From Winogradskyella costae (lineage in GTDB: Bacteria > Bacteroidota > Bacteroidia > Flavobacteriales > Flavobacteriaceae), in the NCBI RefSeq assembly GCF_013403865.1, contig NZ_JABFDK010000001.1, forward strand, positions 930,001 to 994,000: 64,000 nt of DNA. Direction: 5' to 3'. This document shows, piece after piece, positions 33,699 through 40,636 of this stretch (position 1 is its first letter; the number at the start of each line of letters is the position of its first letter). Both the position numbers and the translations under genes were made by a program. A model generated the notes under the pieces. That model saw nothing but the letters and a program-made list of their open reading frames with translations, was not told where the DNA came from and did not search any database.

Positions 33699-36600
33699 AT
33701 GAACATCAAAAAGCACCTCCTCCTACTCTTAATTCTCGCATTTGTCGTTTCATGTAAAAAAACACCTGTAGAAACCGATAATATTTTTAAGTATCGCGAT
33801 TACATTAGCTATACAACTTCAGGTTTAGTTTCTGTTGCTGACCCTATAAAAATCAGCCTTTCAGATACGGTTAACGGATGGGAAATCGATAAAACCCTAC
33901 CAGCAGAACTTGTTAAAATAACACCTCACGTTCAAGGCCAATTAAAAGCCATGAACAATCATACCTTACTTTTCACACCAGATGAACACCTAGAACCTGC
34001 TACAGAATACACTGTAAATGTAAAGCTCGGAGAAATTTACAAAAACATCCCAACAGATTTTGAAGATTACACCTTTCAATTTAAAACCATCACTCCAAGT
34101 TTTAATATCACCACCCAAAACCTACAATCCTATAGTAAAGAATGGCAATATATGTTTGCGCAATTGCGTTCAGCGGATGTTATTTCACTTGCTGAAGCTA
34201 AAAACTTAGTGTCTGCTTCTCAGAATTCAAAATCATTAAAATTGGTGTGGAATGACGCTAACGAAACTTCAAAATTCTTCGAGTTTAAAATAGATAGTAT
34301 TAATCGTTTGGTTGAAGACAGTAAAATTGATGTGAAATGGGATGGTTCAGCTATAAACGCAGATAATAAAGGTGAAAACTTTATTACTATTCCTGGAAAA
34401 AATAACTTTACCATTGTAAATTTTGAAGTCATTCAAAGTCCAGAACAATTCTTATCTCTAAACTTTTCAGATCCATTGGTAAAACAGCAAAATTTCGCTG
34501 GCTTAGTCTCGCTTCAAGGCGTTAAAAACCCAAAATATATTGTCGATGGCAATGTATTGCGTGTGTATCCTGATTCTAAGTTGGTGGGCGATATTCAGGT
34601 TGATATCTTCCAAGGCATCAAAACAACTGATGGTTTCAAATTGAAAAAACCATTTTCAGAACTGGTTACCTTTGAAGAATTAAAACCTGAAGTAAGACTC
34701 ATCAGTAACGGCAGTATTCTTCCAAATTCAAATGAATTAAAATTCAATTTTGAAGCCGTTAACCTGAGTAAAGTCGATGTGAGAATCATTAAAATATTCG
34801 AAAATAACGTTCTTCAATTTTTACAAGATTACGACCTTAATAGTGGTGACCAATATGCCATTAAAAAAGTAGGACGACGCATCGCTAAAGAAACCATAAC
34901 CTTAATACAAGACGAGCACCAAAATACCGGAAAATGGAAAGCCTACAGCATCGATTTATCTAAATATTTAAAAGCAGATCCTGGAGCCATTTATAGAGTA
35001 GAATTGAGTTTTAAAAAGGAATATTCGCTTTACGATTGTACCTCAAATGCAGAAACAACAAGCATTGATGACGATGACTACTATGATGATTATTATGAAG
35101 AGGATTACTACGCTTCTGAGGAAAGTACTGAGGAAGAAGAGGACTTACGAGAAGAACGTTATTGGGACAATTTAACCTATAGCTACAGAAACACCAATTA
35201 CCGTTGGAGAGATAGAGACAATCCTTGTACCGAATCTTATTTTAACTACGGCAATCGCGTGGTGTCTCAGAATTTAATCAGTTCAAATCTTGGTATAATT
35301 GCGAAGCAAGGTGCTGATAACACGTACCTATTTGCGGTGACCAATATTTTAACGACCAGTCCAGAAAGTGCTACAAAAATCACCTTATACAATTACCAAC
35401 AACAAGAATTAGCCGATGGCATTACCAATAAAGAAGGCATGCTAAAAATCGACGCTAAACACAGAGCTGCTTTTGCCATTGCAACTAAAGGGAGCAACGT
35501 GAGCTATATTAAATTACACGATGGCATGTCTTTATCATTGAGTAAATTCGATGTGTCTGGTAACCGATTACAACGTGGTCTAAAAGGGTACATTTACGCA
35601 GAACGTGGAGTTTGGCGACCTGGAGACAGTTTGTTTTTAACCTTTATGTTGAATGACGTTGCGAATAAACTACCAAAACGTCATCCTGTAAAATTAGAAA
35701 TCACAGATCCTGTTGGAAAATTGGTGTACAGAAAAATATCGATAGACAACCTTAATAATTTCTATGATTTTACAGTACCAACATCAACAGATTACAAAAC
35801 TGGAAACTATAATGCAAAGGTTTCTGTTGGTGGTGCTACATTTTCAAAAGGCTTAAAAATTGAAACCGTAAAACCAAACCGATTAAAAATTAAAATCGAT
35901 TTTGAAAACGACATTTTAACCAACGACAAACCGCTTCAAGGAGATTTAAATGTGACATGGTTACACGGCGCACCAGCGAAGAGTTTAAAAGCTGAAATAA
36001 AAGCAAAATTCACATCAACGTATACCAGCTTTAAAGGCTATAAAAATTACGTTTTTAACGATCCTACACGTACATTTAATTCTGAAGAAACCAATGTGTT
36101 TGAAGGTAATTTAGATGTAGAAGGTAATGCGACCATCAATTCAAAACTGAATATTGGTAAAAATGCGCCGGGCATGTTAACGGCTCAATTCCTAGTAAGA
36201 GCTTTTGAAAATGGCGGTGATTTTTCATTAGATGCCTTTACCATGCCTTATGCTCCGTATGAGAGTTTTGTTGGGTTACAATCACCAAAAGGCAATAACT
36301 ACGGTTCCTATTTTACAGATGAAAATCACACCTTTGATATAGCAACCGTAACGGCTGAAGGGAAACCTATTAAAAGAGAGAAATTAGAAGTAAAAGTTTA
36401 TAAAGTTGAATGGCGTTGGTGGTGGAATTCCTCTTATGATAACCTATCGAGTTACGTATCGAGCAATTACCACAGACCAGTACAGTCCTTTTTAGTCAAT
36501 ACAGATGCTAACGGTAAAGCGAATTTCAAATTGAAGATTCCAGAAGATGAACGCGGACGTTACTTAATTAGAGTTGTAGATCCAGTAAGTGGACATGCTA

Positions 36601-39272
36601 CAGGAAGAACGGCTTACTTCTATAAAAACTGGTGGTCTTCAAATCCTTCAAGTGATAAAGAAGCGGCAAAAATGTTAGTGTTTTCAACTGACAAAGAAAA
36701 TTATAATGTTGGAGAAATTGCCAAATTAACCTTCCCATCAGGTTCAGAAGGCAGAGCTTTAGTAAGTATAGAAAATGGTTCGGAAGTATTGCAACAGCAA
36801 TGGGTAAAAACGAAGCCAGGTGAAACGACTATCGATATTCCTGTAACTTCCGAAATGGCACCAAACGTCTTTATTAATATTTCATTATTGCAACCGCATG
36901 CTATAACGTCTAACGATTTACCAATTCGTTTGTATGGCGTCATTCCGATGATGGTAGAGGATCCAGCCACTAAATTAGAACCTCAAATTAAGATGCCAGA
37001 TGTTATTAGACCTGAGCAATCTTACGAGATAAAAGTATCTGAAAAGCATAACAAATCTATGACCTACACCATTGCCGTTGTAGAAGAAGGCTTGTTAGAT
37101 TTAACACGTTTTAAAACACCAAATGCTTGGGAGAGTTTTTATGCACGTGAAGCATTAGGCGTGAAAACCTGGGATATTTTTGATGATGTTATTGGTGCTT
37201 ATTCCGGTAGTGTTGACCAAGTATTCGCGATTGGTGGTGATGGCAGTGCTGCTGCTGGAAAAAACAAAAAAGCCAACCGTTTTAAACCTGTTGTGACGTA
37301 TTTGGGCCCTTTCCTGTTAGATAAAGGTCAAACGAAAACACATCAACTTAAAATGCCAAATTATATTGGTGCCGTAAGAGCTATGGTTGTGGCAGGAAAC
37401 AACGCCACAGAAGCTTATGGAAGCGTTGATAAATCTGTTCAGGTGAAACAACCTTTAATGGTTTTAGCCACCTTACCACGAAAATTGAGTCCTGGTGAAA
37501 AAGTAACATTACCTGTAACCGTTTTTGCTATGGAAGACAAAGTTAGAAACGTGAATTTATCCTTAAAATTAAGCGATGGTATTACTGTAAAAGGAAACGC
37601 GACACAATCCCTTTCATTCGATAAGCCAGATGAAAAAATGGTCTATTTTGAGTTGGATGTTACCAAAGCAAAAGGCATCAATACCGTTGAAGTTATTGCT
37701 TCAGGACACGGCGAAAAATCAACCTATAAAGTTGAAATTGATGTGGAGAATCCGAATCCGTTTACATCGCGTGTTATGGATTATGAATTAGAAGCCAACG
37801 CCACTAAAAACATCGACGTGACGACCTTTGGAGTTGCAGGTACAAATTCCGCAACGGTAGAATTTTCAACATTACCACCAATGGATTTCACAGGGAGATT
37901 GCAATATTTAGTTCGTTATCCTCATGGGTGTTTAGAACAAACCACCTCTGGAGTATTTCCGCAATTATTCTTGGCTGATATCTTTGACCTAACGGCTCAA
38001 AAGAAAAAAGAAGTACAGAGTAATATTGAAAGCGGCATTAAACGTTTAGGGAATTTCCAAAAAGCCAATGGAGGTATGAGTTATTGGATGGGAGAAAGCA
38101 CAGCCAATGATTGGAGCACAAGTTATGCTGGCCACTTTATGATTGAAGCGGAGAAGAAAGGCTTTGTTTTGCCATTAACGTTTAAAAGCAATTGGATTGC
38201 TTACCAACAACAAGCTGCTCGAAATTGGAGACCGAGTTATAAAATCTATCATTCAGATTTAGCACAAGCGTATCGTTTATATACCTTGGCTTTAGCTGGA
38301 AGTCCTGATTTAGCAAGCATGAATAGATTGCGTGAGTTTGAAGAAATCTCAAACGAAGCCAAATGGCGATTAGCAGCAGCCTATGCTTTAGCCGGACAAA
38401 AAGAAGCGAGTGATGCCATTTCAAAAACGGCTAATATTAATTTTCAGCCACCAAAATCTAACTATTACACTTATGGGTCAGTGGATAGAAATAGAGCCAT
38501 GGCTTTAGAAACCATGATTATCACTGGCAATCTAAAAGCTAAAGACTTAGCAAAATCTATTGCTAAAGATTTATCGAGTGACAGCTGGATGAGTACGCAA
38601 ACCACAGCCTACAGTTTATTAGCTATGGGGAAAATGGTGATTAAAAATGGAGGAAAAGATTTAAAACTTTCCTACAGTATAAATGGCAAATCAGAAACTA
38701 TAGATACTAAAAATGCCATTGCGCAACGCAGTATTCCTATTACTGATGGCAGCAATCAAATTTCGATTAACAACGCTAAAGATAATTTGGTTTATGTACG
38801 CATTTTAAACTCTGGTAAATTGAAATTAGGCGAAGAATTAGCGGAACAACGTGGCTTTAGTATTTCAACGATTTATAAAGATTTACAAGGCAACAGAATT
38901 GATGTTAAAACACTACAACAAGGACAAGATTTTGTAGCGACAGTAAGCATTTCAAATTTAACAAATGATTATGTACACGATGTAGCGTTAACGCAAATTT
39001 TCCCTTCAGGTTGGGATATTGTAAACACTAGATTTACAGATTTTGGAGATACAACTGTCAGTCAAGCGCGATATACAGACATCAGAGATGATCGCGTGAA
39101 TTTCTATTTTGATATGAACGCCAAGGGTAAATATGGCACTAAAACCTTTACCGTTTTATTAAACGCTTCCTATTTAGGCACCTATTATCTACCAGGCTCA
39201 CAAGCTGAAGCCATGTATGATAACGACTATTTGGTGAGAAATAAAGGGGAATGGGTAACTGTTGAGAAATAA
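33699..39272 (+). CDS. Alpha-2-macroglobulin family lipoprotein
   Basis: The protein has 1857 residues. A lipoprotein signal ends at Cys 19 (LAFVVSC). MG-type beta-sandwich domains fill about 30-1000, with an acidic Asp/Glu/Tyr-rich linker near 448-485. The ERGVWRPGDSLFLTFMLND block (about 628-646) is the usual MG2-like anchor. The alpha-helical thioester domain (about 1390-1680) carries the intact thioester motif C1411-L-E-Q1414 in PHGCLEQT. A receptor-binding-like domain ends the protein. Bacterial A2Ms trap attacking proteases in the periplasm, often working with PBP1C; the pbpC gene lies 4 kb downstream. Length is normal for the Bacteroidota type. Confidence 0.93.
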   Translation: MNIKKHLLLLLILAFVVSCKKTPVETDNIFKYRDYISYTTSGLVSVADPIKISLSDTVNGWEIDKTLPAELVKITPHVQGQLKAMNNHTLLFTPDEHLEPATEYTVNVKLGEIYKNIPTDFEDYTFQFKTITPSFNITTQNLQSYSKEWQYMFAQLRSADVISLAEAKNLVSASQNSKSLKLVWNDANETSKFFEFKIDSINRLVEDSKIDVKWDGSAINADNKGENFITIPGKNNFTIVNFEVIQSPEQFLSLNFSDPLVKQQNFAGLVSLQGVKNPKYIVDGNVLRVYPDSKLVGDIQVDIFQGIKTTDGFKLKKPFSELVTFEELKPEVRLISNGSILPNSNELKFNFEAVNLSKVDVRIIKIFENNVLQFLQDYDLNSGDQYAIKKVGRRIAKETITLIQDEHQNTGKWKAYSIDLSKYLKADPGAIYRVELSFKKEYSLYDCTSNAETTSIDDDDYYDDYYEEDYYASEESTEEEEDLREERYWDNLTYSYRNTNYRWRDRDNPCTESYFNYGNRVVSQNLISSNLGIIAKQGADNTYLFAVTNILTTSPESATKITLYNYQQQELADGITNKEGMLKIDAKHRAAFAIATKGSNVSYIKLHDGMSLSLSKFDVSGNRLQRGLKGYIYAERGVWRPGDSLFLTFMLNDVANKLPKRHPVKLEITDPVGKLVYRKISIDNLNNFYDFTVPTSTDYKTGNYNAKVSVGGATFSKGLKIETVKPNRLKIKIDFENDILTNDKPLQGDLNVTWLHGAPAKSLKAEIKAKFTSTYTSFKGYKNYVFNDPTRTFNSEETNVFEGNLDVEGNATINSKLNIGKNAPGMLTAQFLVRAFENGGDFSLDAFTMPYAPYESFVGLQSPKGNNYGSYFTDENHTFDIATVTAEGKPIKREKLEVKVYKVEWRWWWNSSYDNLSSYVSSNYHRPVQSFLVNTDANGKANFKLKIPEDERGRYLIRVVDPVSGHATGRTAYFYKNWWSSNPSSDKEAAKMLVFSTDKENYNVGEIAKLTFPSGSEGRALVSIENGSEVLQQQWVKTKPGETTIDIPVTSEMAPNVFINISLLQPHAITSNDLPIRLYGVIPMMVEDPATKLEPQIKMPDVIRPEQSYEIKVSEKHNKSMTYTIAVVEEGLLDLTRFKTPNAWESFYAREALGVKTWDIFDDVIGAYSGSVDQVFAIGGDGSAAAGKNKKANRFKPVVTYLGPFLLDKGQTKTHQLKMPNYIGAVRAMVVAGNNATEAYGSVDKSVQVKQPLMVLATLPRKLSPGEKVTLPVTVFAMEDKVRNVNLSLKLSDGITVKGNATQSLSFDKPDEKMVYFELDVTKAKGINTVEVIASGHGEKSTYKVEIDVENPNPFTSRVMDYELEANATKNIDVTTFGVAGTNSATVEFSTLPPMDFTGRLQYLVRYPHGCLEQTTSGVFPQLFLADIFDLTAQKKKEVQSNIESGIKRLGNFQKANGGMSYWMGESTANDWSTSYAGHFMIEAEKKGFVLPLTFKSNWIAYQQQAARNWRPSYKIYHSDLAQAYRLYTLALAGSPDLASMNRLREFEEISNEAKWRLAAAYALAGQKEASDAISKTANINFQPPKSNYYTYGSVDRNRAMALETMIITGNLKAKDLAKSIAKDLSSDSWMSTQTTAYSLLAMGKMVIKNGGKDLKLSYSINGKSETIDTKNAIAQRSIPITDGSNQISINNAKDNLVYVRILNSGKLKLGEELAEQRGFSISTIYKDLQGNRIDVKTLQQGQDFVATVSISNLTNDYVHDVALTQIFPSGWDIVNTRFTDFGDTTVSQARYTDIRDDRVNFYFDMNAKGKYGTKTFTVLLNASYLGTYYLPGSQAEAMYDNDYLVRNKGEWVTVEK

Positions 39273-39332
39273 TACCAAGACCTGCAAGGTTTCAAACAAC
39301 CGTGTAAGTCTTAATTAACCTAAATAATAATA

Positions 39333-39361
39333 CCTACAAGGTCGAAAAAAGACCTTGCAGG
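39333..39361. repeat. CCTGCAAGGTC hairpin
   Basis: CCTACAAGGTC (39333-39343), a 7-nt loop and GACCTTGCAGG (39351-39361) pair at 10 of 11 positions. A degenerate copy of the same wording is at 39278-39312. It might help end transcription of the A2M gene, but there is no T run. Confidence 0.5.
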
Positions 39362-39380
39362 ATAAGTCAACACAACTCTC

Positions 39381-39496
39381 GTCAGTTCGAGTGATTCTGA
39401 CTTTTTCGTCAGAATTGTATCGAGAACCATACAAATTAAAATGTTTCTCGATACAAATTTCAAGCTCAAAAAAGCTTAAAATTCACTCGAAATGAC
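39381..39496. repeat. Nested (cloverleaf-like) palindromic repeat element
   Basis: Outer arms GTCAGTTCGAGTGA (39381-39394) and TCACTCGAAATGAC (39483-39496) pair with one mismatch. Inside are three further hairpins: 39394-39401 with 39408-39415 (8 bp), 39415-39427 with 39444-39456 (12 of 13), and 39462-39466 with 39473-39477 (5 bp). The sense and antisense forms both fold. The wording GTCATTTCGAGTG is like dispersed flavobacterial intergenic repeats, so this is probably a REP/MITE-type element. Confidence 0.6.
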
Positions 39497-39613
39497 AACA
39501 GTATAAAAGACAAAAAACTAGCTACTGAAACTAGTCCTGAGTAAACTAAAACTTGTCGGTCGACAGACAAGAATCCTAAAATACTATTTAGGCTTTGAAT
39601 TTATTTGAAGTAT

Positions 39614-39713
39614 AAAATGTAAATTTTTTGTAATAAACGAGGCATCAAAATCAAGCATAGCCATAGCTATGGTTTATTTTTATAACAAAGTGAAGTGCAA
39701 AAAAGAACATTTT
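39614..39713. repeat. Long inverted repeat with a central palindrome
   Basis: Arms AAAATGTAAATTTTTTG (39614-39630) and CAAAAAAGAACATTTT (39698-39713) are largely complementary. Close to the centre is a perfect 12-bp palindrome CCATAGCTATGG (39661-39672). It may be a MITE-like relic or a regulatory DNA structure upstream of the SH3 gene. Confidence 0.45.
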
Positions 39714-39784
39714 TACCGAATAAACACAAGGTGTAAATGGTATCAAAAAACCGCTAATAATGTTTAACCCAAAAACAAAAAATT

Positions 39785-40636
39785 ATGAACAATTTAAAAC
39801 AGATTTTAGCGATTGTAATGTTATTAAGTGTAACAGCAGTAACAGCTCAACAAACGGCATATGTTGCCGCAGAAAGTGGATTATCTCTTAGAGACCAACC
39901 CGACATTAGTGCAAAACTATTGAGTAAATTATCCTATGGTGAAGCCATTGGAGTTATAGAGAACACAAATAAAGAACTCGTTGTAGTAGATGGTGGTAAA
40001 AAAGTCAGTGGCGAATGGGTAAAAGTTGAAACCCGAAACCATATTGGCTATGTGTTTAATGGCTATTTATCGTCAACAAAAATTTCTAAAACCATTAGAT
40101 TGGATTTAGATAAATTGAATGTTGAAATTAAGAATTTAGCTACTAGCGACTATAAAAGAACGCACAATTTAAAACAACAAGATTCTATTACAATTAATGT
40201 GGATCTCGGAGCTTCACCTGAAAGAAAACAAATTGTTTTAGTTGATAATGATTATAAGCACGTGAGCATCTTTCAACGCTACGAAAATAGCATTTCATTT
40301 ATGAGTGCAGATGCGCAATGCGACTCAAAGGATTGGAAACATTTTGATTCGGAATGGAAACCATTAAAACAAAATAGATCTAATACGTTTGAAACTTTAG
40401 CCTATACAGAAAACGATTGGAAGCACTTTATTGATACGTCGATTGAAGATTTAAAAACAGAGGTTATAGACCAATGTGGATCAGATTGGTTAGACTACTT
40501 TAAAACCATTAAGAATCGAAAAGATCAACCTGTTGGAGTTGCCACAAATCGTGTGTTTTTAAAGTTTATACTCACCGATTTTGAAGATAATATCACAGAA
40601 AAAATAATTGAATTTGATATACCGAAAGGGTGTTAA
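39785..40636 (+). CDS. Secreted SH3-domain protein
   Basis: The protein has 283 residues. A signal peptide (about 1-21, ending VTAQ) precedes a bacterial SH3 domain (about 25-97: AESGLSLRDQPDISAKLLSK, then HIGYVFNGYL). The rest (about 100-283) is an unrecognised extracytoplasmic domain rich in charged strands. SH3_3 domains in exported proteins often bind peptidoglycan; the nearby PBP1C and A2M genes fit a cell-wall theme, but no role is proven. It is convergent with the T9SS gene ending at 40685. Confidence 0.78.
   Translation: MNNLKQILAIVMLLSVTAVTAQQTAYVAAESGLSLRDQPDISAKLLSKLSYGEAIGVIENTNKELVVVDGGKKVSGEWVKVETRNHIGYVFNGYLSSTKISKTIRLDLDKLNVEIKNLATSDYKRTHNLKQQDSITINVDLGASPERKQIVLVDNDYKHVSIFQRYENSISFMSADAQCDSKDWKHFDSEWKPLKQNRSNTFETLAYTENDWKHFIDTSIEDLKTEVIDQCGSDWLDYFKTIKNRKDQPVGVATNRVFLKFILTDFEDNITEKIIEFDIPKGC

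Follow-up and report, generated by a model that had tools for sequence, protein, structure and literature searches.

What is a 116-bp, multiply folded palindromic element doing between two genes of Winogradskyella costae: does it encode a functional RNA, is it a mobile repeat, or is it a chance fold? It lies at positions 39381–39496 of a 64,000-nucleotide stretch of contig NZ_JABFDK010000001.1 (here called the window), between a gene for a bacterial alpha-2-macroglobulin (33699–39272) and a bacterial SH3 domain gene (39785–40636), both on the + strand. A previous interpretation from the letters alone, the sequence-only reading, saw 14-bp outer arms around three hairpins and suggested a REP or MITE-type element, possibly mobilised by a RAYT-like transposase elsewhere.

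Fold of the element and its repeat family

The outer arms (39381–39394 and 39483–39496) are complementary at 13 of 14 positions, with G39385/A39492 as the single mismatch, and 12 of these 13 pairs form in the minimum-energy fold; A39394 and T39483 close the inner hairpins instead. The arms enclose three hairpins (39394–39415, 39416–39455 and 39456–39483), so the architecture first described is borne out. Folded as + strand RNA, the element reached −45.7 kcal/mol compared with a mean of −16.6 (sd 3.0) for dinucleotide shuffles, and none of 200 shuffles was as stable as the 116-base element. Against a fold of this stability (z −9.66), and against a dispersed family whose reversed-pattern control has no match in the same genome, a chance palindrome has a practically negligible probability. 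The natural unit extends by one base on each side of the arms, from C39380, the first base of a CGTC tag, to A39497, and consists of the following parts.

39380–39427, + strand: monomer 1, with CGTC tag (39380–39383), outer stem, inner hairpin and tail GTATCGAGAAC at 39417–39427; closing pair G39385–C39427
39394–39415, + strand: inner hairpin of monomer 1, 8 bp, variable in the family (predicted fold and orthologues)
39416–39455, no strand: central hairpin, the paired inner ends of both monomers (TGTATCGAGAA / TTCTCGATACA)
39428–39443, no strand: spacer of 16 nt between monomers 1 and 2
39444–39497, − strand: monomer 2, inverted, with tag TGTC, closing pair T–A and tail GTATCGAGAAA
39456–39483, − strand: inner hairpin of monomer 2, variable in the family (predicted fold and orthologues)

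Because the middle hairpin is formed by the inner ends of the two monomers, the cloverleaf is the product of two inverted repeats. Searches of the window against Rfam returned no family at or above the gathering score; at relaxed E-values, the region 39200–39800 gave five matches, all below it (best 32.1 vs 45 bits). A tag search allowing up to one mismatch found only this one dimer of the family in the window.

The copies give the monomer pattern YGTCA-S-TTCGAGTG-variable hairpin-GTATCGAGAA-S′, in which S pairs with S′, and in the window element two of these monomers face each other head to head, tags outside. We collected 309 distinct monomers and clustered them at 85% of the inner region to 163, which were 36–67 nt long (median 49), with inner regions of 12–42 nt and a mean inner stem of 8.7 bp. 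Among 258 strict monomers, 148 began with CGTC and 110 with TGTC, a choice of bases that the search pattern itself (C or T followed by GTC) demanded.

A whole-genome search for copies, proposed together with the initial description, showed the sequence to be multi-copy. The exact 14-base tag occurred at 27 sites in the own genome (4.13 Mb, 51 contigs) and its reversed-pattern control at none; the element as query yielded 21 matches, some of them both strands of one place. Using one genome per genus of Flavobacteriaceae, own included, at least one exact tag site was found in 71 of 149 genera and at least two in 53; the 18 genera with a single site may be due to chance, since six genomes show one reversed-control match each. 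Within the genus, the element was matched in 51 of 60 genomes (own included). Contigs of a genome collection contributed at least 117 stretches with the family; among the matches listed, all but three were labelled Bacteroidota, mostly Flavobacteriales; binning errors may account for these three (one Chlorobiota and two Dojkabacteria MAG contigs). The scan of viral contigs gave no family match. With 27 sites at home and a distribution over 71 of 149 genera and 51 of 60 congeners, the element is therefore REP- or REPIN-like and CGTC-tagged, not a single-copy RNA.

Pairs of monomers are frequent. Four genomes, one of which (G176) entered the count with 71 of its 87 sites, held 24 head-to-head dimers spanning 99–186 bp, five tail-to-tail pairs and 28 same-strand neighbours, the latter mostly in arrays. 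Over the 309 monomers, an opposite-strand tag lay at most 170 nt from the tail in 166, and the neighbour arrangements comprised 166 head to head, 68 tail to tail and 113 head to tail.

Some loci have a more complex organisation. Monomers also form tandem arrays, with periods such as 52 bp and 196 bp (12 copies), in which the tail is missing from some units (L131:1309-2005; G176:C1:541847-544003; L177; L193). At two loci (L308:2135-2258 and L043), the loops of inner hairpins contain an additional palindrome of the TGTCA type, which gives the impression of a repeat inserted into another's loop. Four stretches of ~0.25–0.5 kb, spaced ~1.6–3.5 kb and each with a family site, follow each other at L365 (G153:C1:2214100-2222900), and all four match the same own-genome loci (L041, L042).

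Conserved pairing and turnover at orthologous sites

The closing pair S–S′ was Watson-Crick in 142 of the 163 clustered monomers (G-C 69, C-G 48, A-T 19, T-A 6), compared with a mean of 56.6 and a maximum of 79 in 2000 permutations. Similarly, the net inner stem was 7.09 vs 3.48 after swapping the 3′ halves between monomers (swapped maximum 3.77 in 200 rounds). The structure of the family is conserved while the sequence of the inner stem varies.

Among orthologues of the window copy itself, the aligned sequences suggest modest covariation. Seven of the eight pairs in the inner hairpin of monomer 1 were invariant across 10 distinct orthologues. Over the same 10, five pairs carried double changes, compared with 2.4 after shuffling (16/500) and 1–4 with partners slid, and the covariation score was 0.077 vs 0.048 in shuffled alignments (0/500 as high) and 0.033–0.046 with partners slid. 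The paired percentage in these orthologues, 89.9, is biased upward because the structure came from one of them. A single-copy sequence with compensatory changes had been named earlier as the pattern of a functional RNA: the compensatory changes are present, and the sequence is multi-copy.

The macroglobulin C-terminus was located in 50 of the 60 genomes of the genus, and both flanking genes were recognised at 42 of these 50. Comparing filled and empty sites in relatives, another check suggested at the outset, we found that, allowing up to one mismatch, this gap has one or more tag sites in 16 of the 42 genomes and none in 26. The first hairpin was near-identical in all 11 aligned orthologous copies; hence the elements of this gap look like copies by descent. 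One species has kept only monomer 1. Among the 36 gaps inspected, those free of the repeat were short or contained other palindromes (GACCTGCAAGGTTTTxAAAACCTTGCAGGTC; AATTCCTGCGxAGGCAGGAATCTCA; GTCATTGCGAGG..GGCAATCTC). These empty gaps and foreign palindromes mark the gap as a place where several repeat families come and go. In two congeners (L289, L290), the gap also accommodates a small additional ORF whose start resembles that of a lipoprotein, as judged by eye.

Elsewhere in the genome, one monomer of an operon was present in one and absent from the other of the own genome and a close relative, a 61-bp difference at which no duplication was seen at base level and which could equally be a deletion. 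Another gap of that operon carries a different palindrome in the monomer's place. We then tried another six sites of the relative and found an own-genome counterpart for four of them and none for two. These sites had at first looked specific to the relative, an idea we rejected: at three of the four counterparts the own genome has copies that are recognisable or decayed, and one (L359) is without the repeat. A third congener lacks the repeat at one of the relative's four matched sites. This suggests that the copies are old, mostly vertically inherited and decaying, with local amplification.

In three congeners (L358:840-1000, L378, L386), a glycosyltransferase-like ORF (name assigned by eye) of 269, 269 and 287 aa, respectively, contains a dimer in frame; the own-genome counterpart (L394), a frame of 256 aa, has a diverged stretch about as long. 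Palindromic elements of Rickettsia can also sit in frame inside genes. The in-frame insertion is alike, the hosts are unrelated, and the likeness is one of description.

Tandem arrays at periods of 52 and 196 bp, decaying allelic copies and the limited resemblance of dispersed own-genome copies (best identity 0.875 over 48 bases, ungapped comparison) would also be expected of neutral debris, in which replication slippage and hairpin-templated repair maintain and multiply palindromes that are not mobile at present and have not been so in recent times. Yet unlinked sites in many genera share tag and tail, and their differing inner stems still pair, which makes this an unlikely account.

Folding strand and genomic placement

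A G·T mismatch in a stem of the tagged strand is an A·C mismatch on the opposite strand, and the two types can thus indicate which strand folds. In the clustered monomers, G·T or T·G outnumbered A·C or C·A by 10:0 at the closing pair (p 0.002) and by 26:10 in the inner stems (p 0.011). Divided by gene context according to crude ORF calls, the summed closing and inner ratios of unclustered monomers were 19:7 in sense, 14:4 in antisense and 24:4 in other positions; after clustering, they were 11:3 (p 0.057), 10:4 (p 0.18) and 15:3. Selection on RNA alone predicts a reversal of the bias in antisense monomers, which was not seen, although neither the clustered antisense nor the clustered sense value is significant taken singly. 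As far as mismatches in the compared copies can tell, the wobble bias weakly favours folding of the tagged strand as single-stranded DNA over folding as RNA. Cytosine deamination of the single-stranded tagged strand could be an alternative source of the bias. With the terminus placed by assumption opposite dnaA, monomers in four genomes showed no replication-strand bias (26:36, p 0.25). Single-strand transposition would perhaps leave such a bias, and its lack might count against dispersal as single-stranded DNA.

The 309 monomers were located mainly between genes: 149 in codirectional, 63 in convergent and 19 in divergent gaps; a further 29 fell within crude ORF calls and 49 at the edges of loci. 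Those in codirectional gaps had a median distance of 89 nt behind the upstream gene and were sense in 98 and antisense in 51 cases (clustered 50:32), an excess that leaves room for an effect at the RNA level. Same-strand monomers of the family also occupy several gaps of a paa-like operon (L130:2304-10293, G000:C49; gene names by eye).

Such placement is what one would expect if transcribed intergenic hairpins benefited the host by stabilising or processing the upstream mRNA, with selection keeping the useful copies. The short distance to the upstream gene, the surplus of convergent over divergent gaps and of sense over antisense monomers, the repeated same-strand occurrence in the paa-like operon and the covariation among orthologues all fit this explanation. 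However, the wobble bias tracks the strand of the repeat and not transcription, no tag (up to one mismatch) was found in the orthologous gap of 26 of 42 genomes, some of which have other palindromes there, and in three congeners one copy is part of an open reading frame. We consider a host-beneficial RNA rather unlikely, though it comes closest among the alternatives.

The reading that we favour, with fair but by no means high confidence, is a REPIN-like, head-to-head dimer of CGTC-tagged REPs without a gene of its own, belonging to a family that was dispersed as folded single-stranded DNA. Its basis is directly observed: a repeat family with a terminal tag, frequent head-to-head and mainly intergenic, with covarying stems, and patchy presence as well as descent at this site. 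For dispersal, the tagged strand would fold as single-stranded DNA and be recognised in trans by an enzyme, just as TnpA-REP proteins, which process folded single-stranded DNA (PMC8266576, accessible part), recognise their own REPs. This enzyme would probably not be a dedicated Y1 transposase linked to the family. Today the copies seem to be mostly vertically inherited, subject to decay, loss and local tandem amplification, and any effect on the mRNA of the upstream macroglobulin or downstream SH3 gene would be secondary.

Transposase genes and known repeat systems

According to the sequence-only reading, a MITE or REP may have been mobilised by a RAYT-like, or Y1/RAYT, transposase encoded at another locus. 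In its favour, tag, bulged stem and inverted doublet are the form of RAYT substrates, and one RAYT of the own genome has kept its HUH and tyrosine motifs intact. We found two Y1_Tnp matches in the own genome. One is a degraded IS200-like transposase gene (L021, G000:C33:104632-104976); the other, the RAYT, forms an in-frame fusion with HemF and lies between GACCT..AGGTC palindromes, not between copies of the CGTC-tagged family. Both were rejected as mobilisers, the former being broken by two internal stops and the latter tied to a different repeat. Thus, the suggested search for a RAYT gene did find one, in the company of another palindrome.

Extending the inspection to 51 Y1 loci (2 own, 29 best-of-genome and 20 chosen among the matches listed), we found no site of the family, at up to one mismatch, in the 175,054 nt around them; with a looser motif, L053 and L071 each had a single match that looked like chance. 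At 27 sites per 4.13 Mb, about one site would be expected by chance, so the result indicates lack of linkage and not avoidance. At five of the 51 loci, the Y1 gene was flanked on either side by a different palindrome. Y1_Tnp matches occurred in 29 of 71 genera with the repeat and 30 of 78 without it (Fisher p 0.87, 149 genera), and they did not predict repeat presence at 1, 5 or 10 sites over the same 149 genera. One genome had 49 tag sites and zero Y1_Tnp matches at E 0.001. A stretch of a relative with symmetrical flanking copies contained no transposase among its ORFs, as judged by eye. All this leaves movement by a Y1/RAYT transposase quite improbable. From the earlier classification, the REP part holds (dispersed, mainly intergenic, tagged, often inverted dimers); the MITE part is unsupported, though still conceivable, with no duplication seen at the single 61-bp difference, and RAYT mobilisation is unsupported for this family, with neither linkage nor co-occurrence.

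The RAYT-linked palindrome deserves a note of its own. Two copies of it adjoin the element at 39278–39362 of the window (GACCTGCAAGGTTT.. and ACCTACAAGGTC..GACCTTGCAGG). It was found at six of the 51 Y1 loci, and at five of them (L022, L073, L109, L123, L125) on both sides of the Y1 gene; it is a RAYT-linked REP of flavobacteria. The RAYT–HemF fusion (L022:388-1851, G000:C11:1322051-1323511) recurs at L332–L335 and, in another genus, at L125. A long frame of this kind exists in 23 of the 60 genomes of the genus, own included, 17 of them aligned over the full length and six with two adjacent same-frame matches. In the five frames read (L332–L335, L125), the NHFH and YVHKNP motifs were intact; the linker LSGFENLTG occurs in four of five frames and is encoded in the own genome by the repeat palindrome. 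The fusion may represent a transposase that has been domesticated, or no more than a read-through frame. Among the literature matches listed, no title dealt with a fusion of RAYT and coproporphyrinogen oxidase.

How does the family relate to described repeats? The following comparisons refer to the accessible parts of the papers cited. The CGTC-tagged REPs of Di Nocera, De Gregorio and Rocco (2013, PMC3733652) have stems of 8–9 bp, loops of 4–5 nt and a 3-nt tail mostly fitting CCA; their first two stem pairs are A-T, and they are mainly intergenic and frequent as head-to-head dimers, with negligible head-tail dimers, rare clusters and no linked tyrosine transposase. Our family agrees in the terminal CGTC/TGTC tag, the frequent head-to-head arrangement, the mainly intergenic location and the lack of a linked tyrosine transposase at the 51 Y1 loci examined. 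It differs in that a short, conserved, bulged outer stem encloses a second, sequence-variable hairpin, that same-strand neighbours and tandem arrays are common, and that, of the 163 clustered monomers, 117 have G-C or C-G at stem position two; a T follows S′ in 122 of 309 monomers. The two-tier hairpin falls outside the stem and loop lengths given there for four described CGTC families. The flavobacterium Gramella forsetii is on the CGTC list of that paper, and its repeat may be the same as the family reported here. The same authors equate RPE-4 and RPE-6 of Rickettsia with CGTC repeats.

REPINs (Bertels and Rainey 2011, PMC3116915) consist of an inverted REP pair and a spacer that form one larger hairpin, show compensatory changes, occur in tandem clusters and are linked to RAYTs. 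The inverted doublet forming one hairpin, the compensatory changes and the tandem clusters are shared by our family; the linkage is not, as no RAYT at the 51 Y1 loci was flanked by the CGTC-tagged repeat. REPs of the E. coli type resemble it in the bulged, imperfect palindrome after a conserved motif, and strand-specific folding fits as well (PMC8266576). Their tag is GTAG (PMC3733652) and not CGTC, however, and no cognate enzyme was found here at the 51 Y1 loci. For subclass 2.6 of the TnpA-Y1 transposases of Bacteroidetes, atypical structures flank the transposase gene (PMC6006769). They share with our repeats the phylum and the presence of copies elsewhere in the genome, but the CGTC-tagged family flanks no Y1 gene at the 51 loci inspected; by analogy, the neighbouring GACCT..AGGTC palindrome may be a candidate structure of this type. 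REPs were counted in two Flavobacterium genomes in PMC12306157, in whose available account the sequence of our family was not found, and a search of literature text for both core motifs of the monomer together gave no match.

By which route CGTC repeats spread without a linked transposase is a question left by the available text of the 2013 account (PMC3733652). The family described here is rich in copies throughout a genus and offers orthologous sites both with and without the repeat, copy-rich genomes free of Y1_Tnp matches and a strand-specific mismatch bias, and together these features make the alternatives of DNA vs RNA and of mobile vs relic testable. The broader idea that CGTC repeats are a REPIN-like class, dispersed as folded tagged-strand DNA by machinery other than a linked Y1 transposase and hence a second, independent way to spread short palindromes, is offered tentatively; we would regard it as doubtful at this stage.

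A further hairpin in the same intergenic region, CTTGTCGGTCGACAGACAAG at 39552–39571, precedes the SH3 gene. Relatives of it with compensatory changes (e.g., CTCGCCGTCCGGAAGGCAAG, CTTGTCGTCCGGAAGACAAG, CTTGCTGGTCGACAAGCAAG) were found with a loose pattern at 36 of 50 loci. As a candidate functional RNA, this hairpin would be stronger than the 116-base element.
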